Of a stretch of 64,000 nucleotides of DNA, positions 37,964 to 40,135 are shown piece by piece. The notes beneath the pieces were generated by a model. The model was not told the DNA's origin, made no database searches, and saw only the letters and a list, made by a program, of their open reading frames with translations. This DNA comes from Haladaptatus caseinilyticus (GTDB taxonomy: Archaea; Halobacteriota; Halobacteria; Halobacteriales; Haladaptataceae): positions 62,001 to 126,000 of the forward strand of contig NZ_CP111036.1 in the NCBI RefSeq assembly GCF_026248685.1. The letters are read 5' to 3'. Position 1 is the first letter of the stretch. Each line of letters opens with the position of its first letter. A program made the translations under genes and the position numbers.

Positions 37964-38485
37964 GTGAGCGACGATACGACCCGCCGCCACGATCGAATCA
38001 CGCACCATTCGACGCCGGGCGGTTTGAACTCCCTCCAGTACTGGACGACGGCCCGCAGTCCGCTTCGGGTCGCAATGCAGTACCTCGTTATCTGGCTCGT
38101 CCGGATCAACCCGAGCCTTCGGCTGAAGAACTGGCTGCTGCGACGAATCGGCGTCACGGTCGGACGGGGCGTGTCGTGGGGACTCGAATCGACGCCGGAC
38201 GTGTTCTGGCCCGACCTCATCACCGTCGAGGATCACGCCATCATCGGCTACAACGCGACGATTCTCTGCCACGAGTTTCTGCAGGACGAGTACCGAACCG
38301 GCGAAGTCGTCATTGGCGAGCGAGCGATGATTGGCGCCGGGGCCGTCATCCTCCCGGGCGTCGAAATCGGTGCGGGGGCGCAAGTGGCCGCAAACTCGTT
38401 GGTGACCAGGGACGTTCCGCCGGGCGAGACGGTTGCGGGCGTCCCGGCGACGGCGATGTCGAGCGAGGAAGTGGATTCCGAGTAG
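37964..38485 (+). CDS. Hexapeptide-repeat acyltransferase (LbetaH)
   Basis: A 173-residue protein starting at GTG 37964. The C-terminal half holds left-handed beta-helix hexapeptide repeats: ITVEDHAIIGYNATILCHEF, VVIGERAMIGAGAVILPGVE, IGAGAQVAANSLVTRDVPPG and the typical end VAGVPATAM. The segment near 40-55 (YLVIWLVRINPSLRLKNWLL) is amphipathic and could attach it to the membrane. Similar to maltose/galactoside O-acetyltransferases; acceptor unknown. Possibly in an operon with the upstream HTH gene. Confidence 0.87.
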   Translation: MSDDTTRRHDRITHHSTPGGLNSLQYWTTARSPLRVAMQYLVIWLVRINPSLRLKNWLLRRIGVTVGRGVSWGLESTPDVFWPDLITVEDHAIIGYNATILCHEFLQDEYRTGEVVIGERAMIGAGAVILPGVEIGAGAQVAANSLVTRDVPPGETVAGVPATAMSSEEVDSE

Positions 38486-38545: not shown

Positions 38546-39322
38546 TCAGTTCCGAAGCCGAACCGCGCCCTTTCGCATGACGAGGTGGTTCGGCAGGATG
38601 AACTCCTCGCCGTCGTTCTCGATATGGGTGACGAACATATCGACCTCTTGGACGATTCCCTGATTGCCAGCGACGCGGATCTCGTCGCCGATGCCGTAGG
38701 GCTGGTTGAGAAGGAGGTAGATTCCCGCCGCGGACGAACGGAGCAAGTCCCAGGACGCAACCGCGCCGAAAACGATGACGGCGAGGACGTACGCGCCGAA
38801 GAGCACGAGGAGTGTCAACACCGCGATACCGATTTGACTGAGCGCGATGAGTGTAGAGACGTAGACGATGCTATATTTGACGATTCGTGGGATGAGGCTT
38901 ACTTCCGGGAGCTTGACGCTCCGAAGGCGTTCGCTGACCAGCAGTTCGGCTTTGTCGGCGATGACGAAGCCGACGATGAACACCAACGCCGCGACGAACA
39001 GTTGCGGTGTGAAGAGGATGATTTGCCAAAACAACTGCGTGCTAAGCGGCAACTCGGCGGTGTTCAGCGCGAGCAAAATCGCGACGCCGTAGATGAACCA
39101 CGACGTGAGCCGAGCGATGAGCGACACCGTGGTGGTTCCGAGACTCCGAGCAGTACGCTCGAAGGGCGTTCCCTCGACGACTTCGTGAACTCCTGCAGCA
39201 CGGAGAATACGTCGGTTCAGTCGGCCGAGAAGATATCCCGCGATGCCACCCACGACGAGAATGAGTATCGCGAGGACGATTCGGTATTCCTCACGGAGGA
39301 GTACTTGCCACTCGGGTTGCAT
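38546..39322 (-). CDS. Short MscS-type mechanosensitive channel
   Basis: A 258-residue membrane protein with about five hydrophobic segments (first IVLAILILVVGGIAGYLLG). The MscS pore-lining and beta domains follow: AVASWDLLRSSAAGIYLLLN, then QPYGIGDEIRVAGNQGIVQE and VTHIENDGEEFILPNHLVMR. It ends right after the beta domain, so the large C-terminal cytosolic vestibule of E. coli MscS is absent. Its ATG directly abuts the dacZ stop codon (no gap, no overlap), giving a two-gene operon. Confidence 0.9.
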   Translation of the reverse strand: MQPEWQVLLREEYRIVLAILILVVGGIAGYLLGRLNRRILRAAGVHEVVEGTPFERTARSLGTTTVSLIARLTSWFIYGVAILLALNTAELPLSTQLFWQIILFTPQLFVAALVFIVGFVIADKAELLVSERLRSVKLPEVSLIPRIVKYSIVYVSTLIALSQIGIAVLTLLVLFGAYVLAVIVFGAVASWDLLRSSAAGIYLLLNQPYGIGDEIRVAGNQGIVQEVDMFVTHIENDGEEFILPNHLVMRKGAVRLRN

Positions 39323-40135
39323 CTAATACTCCTCCGGATCGAGTTCGAGAATGATTTCACCGCCTTTGAACGATCGGACGAGACCGTCGCTCTCGGAGAG
39401 AACGATGGCCGTGGCGTTCGTATCGCGGGTAATCGCACCTGCCGCCATATGTCGTGCACCGAGTCCTTTCGGGATATCGACGCCTTCTGCGGACGGTTCG
39501 AGATATCGGTAGGCAGAGACGATCTTCCCCGAGTCCGAGATGACGAACGCGCCGTCCAATCGAGAGAACTCCTTCAGCATGACGTTCACGATCGGGTCGC
39601 CAACGTGGACGTGCGACTTCTCGAACGGGTTGTACGAGAGCGGACGGGACTTGTTCATCACTTTTCCCGCGTCGCCGACGACGAACAGCGCGCCGACGGG
39701 TTTGCCTTTCTGTCCCTTTTTCCCCAACTCGATGGCGACTTCGAATACGTCGCGAATGACGCCGGGGTCGGCCCGCGAGTTGGCGAACAGGTCGTAGATT
39801 CCCGAATGGGCCTCCTCGTTCGCTCGAACACGGGTCGCGGTATCGAGTCCGTCGCCGAACATGCTGGCGACACAGACGAGTTCGTCGCCGTCTTCAGCAA
39901 GTCCGTGGTCGATGGCCCCTTCGATACCGAACCTGATCCGGTCTTTGACGTTTTCGAACTCCAGCGGAAGTTCGACGAAATCACTCGCGCTGACGTGGTT
40001 ATCGGGTGCGACGACCACCACGTCGGGGCCGTCCACGTCCGCGAACCGCTCGTAGTACGACCCGCTTGGAGAGAAGAGGAACACTGCGTCGACGCCTGCG
40101 ACGAGGTCCTCGAGAAGTTCGCTCAGCTCGGTCAT
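39323..40135 (-). CDS. dacZ: Diadenylate cyclase (archaeal c-di-AMP synthase)
   Basis: Makes cyclic di-AMP from two ATP. The 270-residue protein has a DAC (DisA_N) domain in the C-terminal half: SRLDGAFVISDSG with the catalytic D194-G-A motif, and GLGARHMAAGAITRDTNATA containing R228-H-M, where RHR is the common form. The N-terminal half with FLFSPSGSYYERF and DNHVSASDF is the archaeal DacZ extension. ATG 40135 is used. c-di-AMP controls osmotic balance in haloarchaea and bacteria, and the abutting MscS channel gene fits that role. Confidence 0.92.
   Translation of the reverse strand: MTELSELLEDLVAGVDAVFLFSPSGSYYERFADVDGPDVVVVAPDNHVSASDFVELPLEFENVKDRIRFGIEGAIDHGLAEDGDELVCVASMFGDGLDTATRVRANEEAHSGIYDLFANSRADPGVIRDVFEVAIELGKKGQKGKPVGALFVVGDAGKVMNKSRPLSYNPFEKSHVHVGDPIVNVMLKEFSRLDGAFVISDSGKIVSAYRYLEPSAEGVDIPKGLGARHMAAGAITRDTNATAIVLSESDGLVRSFKGGEIILELDPEEY

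Follow-up and report, generated by a model that had tools for sequence, protein, structure and literature searches.

Conserved pairing of a predicted diadenylate cyclase gene with a tail-less MscS-type channel gene in Halobacteria

Introduction

The gene pair considered here has a published counterpart in Haloferax volcanii, where dacZ (HVO_1660) and mscS2 (HVO_1659) were reported to form an operon that is found in all halobacteria (Braun et al., 2019; PMC6741144). Synthesis of c-di-AMP has been demonstrated for H. volcanii DacZ, and the gene is essential in that its deletion proved impossible (PMC6741144). Deletion of mscS2 is viable and results in slightly reduced growth in 1.8 M NaCl (hypo-salt), and cells of a strain with lowered c-di-AMP are larger in hypo-salt (PMC6741144). 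The authors of that study argue that the MscS2 channel is not a main target of c-di-AMP, and also mention that bacterial DacA/CdaA cyclases have transmembrane domains of their own (PMC6741144). The pair that we have analysed is located in the 4.8 Mb genome of the haloarchaeon Haladaptatus caseinilyticus, in a stretch of 64,000 nucleotides referred to as the window, and is identical to the H. volcanii pair in genes and gene order. The dacZ-mscS2 gene pair as an operon is thus known already (Braun et al., 2019; PMC6741144). What looks new, in that it was not found in the literature searched, is the conserved tail-less form of the channel, the exclusivity of the pairing, its joint loss, and a ribosome-binding site embedded in dacZ. 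The words vestibule, truncat, and shorter are absent from the main text of PMC6741144, neither translational coupling nor a quantification of the exclusivity nor the joint loss was found in the available portion of that paper, and no other newer paper among the matches listed uses the term mscS2.

Channels of the MscS superfamily with a similarly short C-terminus have been described elsewhere. TcMscS from Trypanosoma cruzi is a heptameric mechanosensitive channel that conducts and is without the C-terminal alpha/beta domain and side portals (Nat Commun 2025; PMC12334622). Like MscS2, it terminates after the beta domain, but it is protozoan and has two membrane-embedded helices compared to the five predicted in MscS2. 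To our knowledge, no cyclase partner of TcMscS has been described. Another tail-less MscS, of 171 amino acids, is represented by PDB entries 9sdg, 9sdb, and related ones; it aligns to residues 107–255 of MscS2 and ends approximately 12 residues later, with an N-terminus that is approximately 90 residues shorter than that of MscS2, a form that may be natural or engineered. No relevant publication for the 9sd/9se entries was found among the matches listed. E. coli MscS shares TM1–TM3 and the beta domain with MscS2, but has two fewer TM helices and a vestibule that extends from past residue 180 to residue 286. In bCNG channels, the cyclic-nucleotide-gated members of the MscS superfamily, a cyclic-nucleotide-binding domain sits after the channel part.

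A connection between c-di-AMP and an MscS protein is also seen in Bacillus subtilis, where a gain-of-function change in YfkC aids glutamate export in a c-di-AMP-free strain (PMC7857571). Unlike the case of MscS2, this link is genetic only, and the available portion of PMC7857571 does not speak of a cyclase gene linked to yfkC. CmpX (PMC10965496, available in part) was considered as an analogue and dropped for want of sequence evidence, and the available portions of PMC8646023 and PMC10117811 revealed nothing further on a cyclase-linked channel.

Results

Both genes are encoded on the minus strand of the window, dacZ at 39323–40135 and mscS2 at 38546–39322. With the ATG at 40135 taken as its start, dacZ encodes a protein of 270 amino acids with DACZ_N and DAC domains (191.8 bits against PF19294 and 72.2 bits against PF02457) and with the DGA and GARH motifs in its translation. 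It scores 501.5 bits against NCBIfam NF041371 over residues 1–270, which is full-length and above the equivalog cut-off of 430, and the H. caseinilyticus protein is a predicted diadenylate cyclase by domains and equivalog score. The mscS2 gene encodes a channel protein of 258 amino acids that belongs to the MscS superfamily by its matches to PF00924 and PF05552 and by an AlphaFold model, with five predicted TM helices and a beta domain. The genes meet at 39320–39325 (minus strand), where the dacZ stop codon (TAG, 39325–39323) is followed by the mscS2 start codon (ATG, 39322–39320) with 0 intervening bases. A sequence-only reading of the window had placed dacZ directly against the channel gene at this site and on this strand, and it was right on both adjacency and coordinates. 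Just downstream of mscS2, a convergent gene on the plus strand (37964–38485 of the window) encodes a protein that we take to be acyltransferase-like from its repeats; its family is the commonest neighbour of the pair (33 of 57 genera).

The conservation of the pair was analysed in 58 genera, of which 57 have dacZ and are represented by one genome each, the 58th being that of genome G129 (see below). The channel gene adjoins dacZ in 57/57 representatives. When the ATG closest to the dacZ stop was preferred within an interval of −30 to +60 nt, the offset between the dacZ stop and the channel start was −1 to +5 nt in 56 of the 57 genera and +11 in one, with ATG as the start codon in 56 and GTG in one. 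Similarly, dacZ is directly upstream of the channel gene, at an offset of −1 to +4, in all 80 named genomes that were retained as the best 80 of 283 candidate loci from a profile search; the closest channels among these 80 are from Haladaptatus, at 93% identity. At the level of the class, DACZ_N is present in 144/145 genomes and a channel homologue at an E value of 4e-64 or better is likewise present in 144/145, the exception (G129) being the same in both cases. A second DACZ_N match was seen in one genome, G635, of a wider class sample (391 genomes; see below).

Chance neighbourhood is ruled out as an explanation by the counts of 57/57 genera and 80/80 named genomes (best 80 of 283), and so is the retention of the pair merely as part of a conserved region, given that the flanks vary: the six commonest clusters of flanking families occur in 33, 28, 28, 26, 25, and 21 of the 57 genera, rough counts that are based on single-linkage clusters of mechanical ORFs within approximately 5 kb. 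Conservation of the pair had been proposed as a check in the sequence-only reading, and the adjacency in 57/57 genera and 80/80 named genomes (best 80 of 283) speaks in its favour. Channel homologues unlinked to dacZ, named there as evidence to the contrary, were sought inside the class and none was found.

The final codons of dacZ (P-E-E) contain a Shine-Dalgarno-like GGAGGAG (39329–39335, minus strand). In the 20 nt that precede the channel start, GGAGG is present in 49/57 genera compared to 49/2165 control windows, the controls being non-overlapping 20-nt windows of the dacZ body and the junction counts, here and below, being from related genomes and therefore not independent. The motif usually begins 12 or 14 nt before the channel start, is found at the dacZ end in 80/80 named loci (best 80 of 283), and presumably acts in these archaea as a Shine-Dalgarno sequence. 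It is encoded by codons of the DacZ C-terminus, DPE-x-Y, in which position x is variable (E, A, D, V, G, and once N) and its codon starts with G in 56/57. For the Pro of DPE, the codon CCG is used in 50/57, compared to 308/562 elsewhere in dacZ. The G-starting x codon and the CCG bias suggest selection on the DNA beyond that on the protein alone, and point to the ribosome-binding site at the dacZ-mscS2 junction itself as the element under selection.

A Pfam scan of MscS2 resulted in matches to PF05552 (TM-helix, two stretches) and PF00924 (beta domain) and in no match to a third domain. The PF00924 match reaches profile position 58 of 68 and the stop comes 10 residues later, whereas seven further PF00924 genes in the same genome encode 108–144 residues beyond the beta-domain match, in agreement with the earlier notion that the channel ends after this domain. 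The beta domain (residues 207–245, PYGIGD...GIVQEV...PN; 38588–38704, minus strand) is followed by 13 C-terminal residues, counted after the last PN (38549–38587, minus strand), where the vestibule would stand. In 57/57 genus representatives, 12–14 residues follow the beta-domain PN. In 79 of 80 named channels (best 80 of 283 candidate loci), 13–14 residues follow the last PN, and the remaining one counts 253 by this string measure because its PN is not so spelled at the usual place. An artefact or a truncated gene is ruled out by the presence of the short form in 57/57 genera. Thus, the "missing" tail is not gene damage; the short form is the channel family's own conserved form.

The Pfam scan of the 57 channel members gave a PF00924 match in all of them and no further domain in any, i.e., neither the C-terminal alpha/beta vestibule with side portals nor a nucleotide-binding domain was found, and MscS2 in this respect differs from bCNG channels, the cyclic-nucleotide-binding domain of which has no counterpart in these 57 sequences. 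The last eight residues include at least two R/K in 49/57. Judged from its domains, MscS2 is a vestibule-free variant inside the MscS superfamily, with TcMscS as the known precedent.

The AlphaFold single-chain model of MscS2 (51 sequences; mean pLDDT 87.2, pTM 0.65) has five long helices and a beta domain. In fold comparisons, MscS chains rank at the top (Foldseek and VIA rows ranked below the MscS group were left out), with model residues 96–258 superimposing on residues 19–180 of E. coli MscS (7onl) at a Z score of 13.5 and an rmsd of 3.7 over 159 residues, and with T. cruzi MscS at a Z score of 11.1 and an rmsd of 4.0 over 120 residues. Since the match to E. coli MscS extends only to residue 180, MscS2 appears to stop where the MscS vestibule would start. 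Helix order and charge predict five TM segments, an external N-terminus, and an internal C-terminus. The mean number of R+K is 3.96 and 3.72 around the loops assigned to the inside, and 0.56, 0.23, and 0.05 on the outside.

Among the 57 sequences, mean entropy is 1.05 bits in loop 43–64 (EGTPFERTA; 39131–39196, minus strand), which the positive-inside pattern predicts to be cytoplasmic, 0.93 bits in loop 123–140, and 0.93 bits in the beta domain, compared to 1.28–2.11 bits in the TM helices with TM1 as the most variable (2.11). Of the 39 positions of the beta domain (207–245), 14 are conserved at 95% or more, and invariant positions are found in the pore helix and the beta domain. The predicted cytoplasmic loops are thus the best-conserved part of the channel outside the beta domain and the helix preceding it. 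Conservation of loops 43–64 and 123–140 at the predicted inner face fits a contact with a cytoplasmic partner as well as one with lipid, and singles out neither.

In a wider sample, DACZ_N is present in 388/391 class genomes, and the three genomes without dacZ (G129, G627, and G688) are also without the channel; their best channel matches are partial and to generic MscS, at 2.9e-8, 8.7e-10, and 5.2e-9. Two of them, G627 and G688, are draft assemblies (89% complete; 360 contigs), in which joint absence may be an assembly gap. G129 is a single contig at 98% completeness and is the sole informative case of joint absence. A genome of the same family, G136, has the pair, and the state of G129 accordingly looks like a loss. 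G129 retains two copies of another DAC-domain gene with DGA and GARH-type motifs. If this gene makes c-di-AMP, this one case would at most hint that the channel tracks the DacZ protein and not the nucleotide.

Outside of the class, no comparable arrangement was seen. Scored against a profile of the 57 channels, the 294 phylum genomes sampled separate into 53 class genomes at 308–417 bits and the remainder, which does not exceed 87.6 bits. The best outside-class matches either cover approximately residues 105–257, as do ordinary MscS proteins, or the TM part only (approximately 15–192). The latter are short proteins, in open frames from approximately 224 codons, and the restriction of these matches to the TM part suggests that this part may have a separate role. 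An MscS-type frame was found near 0/43 outside-class DAC loci with flanks up to approximately 4 kb, using the same profile that gives 57/57 inside the class. These loci comprise three DACZ_N loci and 40 DAC loci picked across families from the matches listed, drawn from approximately 170 outside-class genomes with a match, such that rarer pairings could be missed. The three DACZ_N loci belong to another family of the phylum (G151, G160, and G169) and are without MscS2. As sampled, the dacZ-channel pairing is a feature of Halobacteria.

Discussion

We propose, at approximately even odds (a probability of about 0.5), that dacZ-mscS2 is an operon for hypo-osmotic protection, in which the channel serves as a vestibule-free valve gated by tension. 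DacZ would make c-di-AMP, and c-di-AMP would restrain the uptake of K+ and other osmolytes, a direction of the osmotic effect that we infer from bacterial systems and from the swelling of c-di-AMP-poor H. volcanii at low salt. The genes would share a single transcript, and MscS2 would be translated off the dacZ message by re-initiation at the Shine-Dalgarno sequence inside the final dacZ codons. MscS2 would be an active channel that opens under tension and vents solute upon membrane stretch, with a pore that leads straight into the cytoplasm without a side-portal vestibule and with no other part required. The proteins would then be tied by dose and task, and not by ligand gating. In support of an operon are the unbroken pair in 57/57 genera, with flanking families in at most 33/57, the GGAGG enrichment and codon bias at the junction, and the published low-salt phenotypes of both genes (PMC6741144). 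The match to the MscS fold and the cage-less precedent of TcMscS support a valve. Against the proposal, the phenotype of the mscS2 deletion is slight, and the seven other PF00924 genes in the genome would make an additional valve largely redundant. Co-expression by itself is also a poor explanation for an unsplit pair in 57 genera, and for the conservation of loops 43–64 and 123–140 at approximately the level of the beta domain. Of the osmotic feedback module suggested from the window's sequence, the osmotic part is retained on the basis of class-wide linkage, as sampled, and of the low-salt genetics (PMC6741144); the feedback through the nucleotide is considered below.

A bolder possibility, which we consider unlikely, is that MscS2 serves the soluble DacZ as its membrane partner and tension sensor, such that tension alters c-di-AMP synthesis or DacZ holds the pore closed. 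DacZ would dock beneath the beta ring or at the conserved loops on the cytoplasmic side and replace the vestibule. Partners of this kind would be expected to stay together, as does the pair in 57 genera and 80 named genomes (best 80 of 283), and to be made in 1:1 dosage, as likely translational coupling would provide. Apart from the beta domain and the helix before it, no part of the channel is more conserved than the loops predicted to be cytoplasmic, and the bacterial DacA/CdaA cyclases bear transmembrane domains of their own (PMC6741144). G129, without dacZ, is also without the channel despite two other DAC-domain copies, as expected if the channel requires the DacZ protein rather than the nucleotide; however, this is a lone example that could stem from one event deleting the operon. 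Moreover, mscS2 can be deleted and dacZ is essential (PMC6741144), which argues that the essential output of DacZ is independent of the channel. Somewhat more doubtful still is a single DacZ-MscS2 membrane complex with the cyclase in the vestibule position, in which tension is read directly as c-di-AMP synthesis. Such a complex, if it exists, would couple an essential second-messenger cyclase to a mechanosensor. The pairing bears on how c-di-AMP synthases sense the osmotic state. In every haloarchaeal locus examined, the gene of an essential soluble cyclase is kept together with that of a putative membrane mechanosensor, and H. volcanii dacZ-mscS2, with its published mscS2 deletion strain, offers a genetically tractable system in which to ask whether tension acts on the cyclase or the cyclase on the valve. 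MscS2 also adds a natural family of prokaryotic proteins, and a large one, to the cage-less members of the MscS superfamily.

Direct gating of MscS2 by c-di-AMP as its ligand, as put forward in the sequence-only reading, is improbable. The dacZ-mscS2 linkage as such would fit, as would the basic residues near the C-terminus (at least two R/K among the last eight in 49/57), but the Pfam scan of the 57 members revealed no known nucleotide-binding domain, G129 has lost the channel yet keeps other DAC-domain genes, and the authors of PMC6741144, in the portion available, argue that the channel is not a main target. The same reading had the nucleotide or its target gate the channel or take the place of the missing domain, a view that finds no support, the mscS2 deletion being viable (PMC6741144). 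TcMscS functions without the alpha/beta domain (PMC12334622), so the gap at the tail of MscS2 needs no filler.

Finally, an ancestral two-gene operon that was never split and is without present function, or a short protein that is not a channel, would agree with a family seemingly confined to one class and with best outside matches to the TM part (approximately 15–192) of short proteins, but is very improbable given that the flanking genes were exchanged (best 33/57) and the pair was not, that the junction has a Shine-Dalgarno-like motif and codon bias, and that invariant positions lie in the pore helix and beta domain.

Several observations concern other DAC-domain genes. Haloarchaea have a second, orphan DAC-domain family of approximately 190–200 amino acids (e.g., L071, 1444–2046, minus strand; L224–L227), found in 54/145 class genomes at E values up to 1e-6. 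The copies examined keep the DGA and G[AS]RHMSA motifs and score at most 13.4 bits against the NCBIfam model and 27.6 bits against the Pfam DAC model. H. volcanii has been described with a single DAC, and the orphan family may thus be an accessory cyclase. DAC domains in unusually long open frames of approximately 550–680 codons, possibly fused to other domains, occur in a family that belongs to the phylum but not to the class (G219, G309, G285, G204, and G317). At the three outside-class DACZ_N loci (L129, L130, and L131), the cyclase gene lies downstream of a thiC-like gene. In L131, the cyclase is followed by a frame that we take from its motifs to be a presenilin-like membrane protease, and a similar frame is found approximately 2 kb further in L130.
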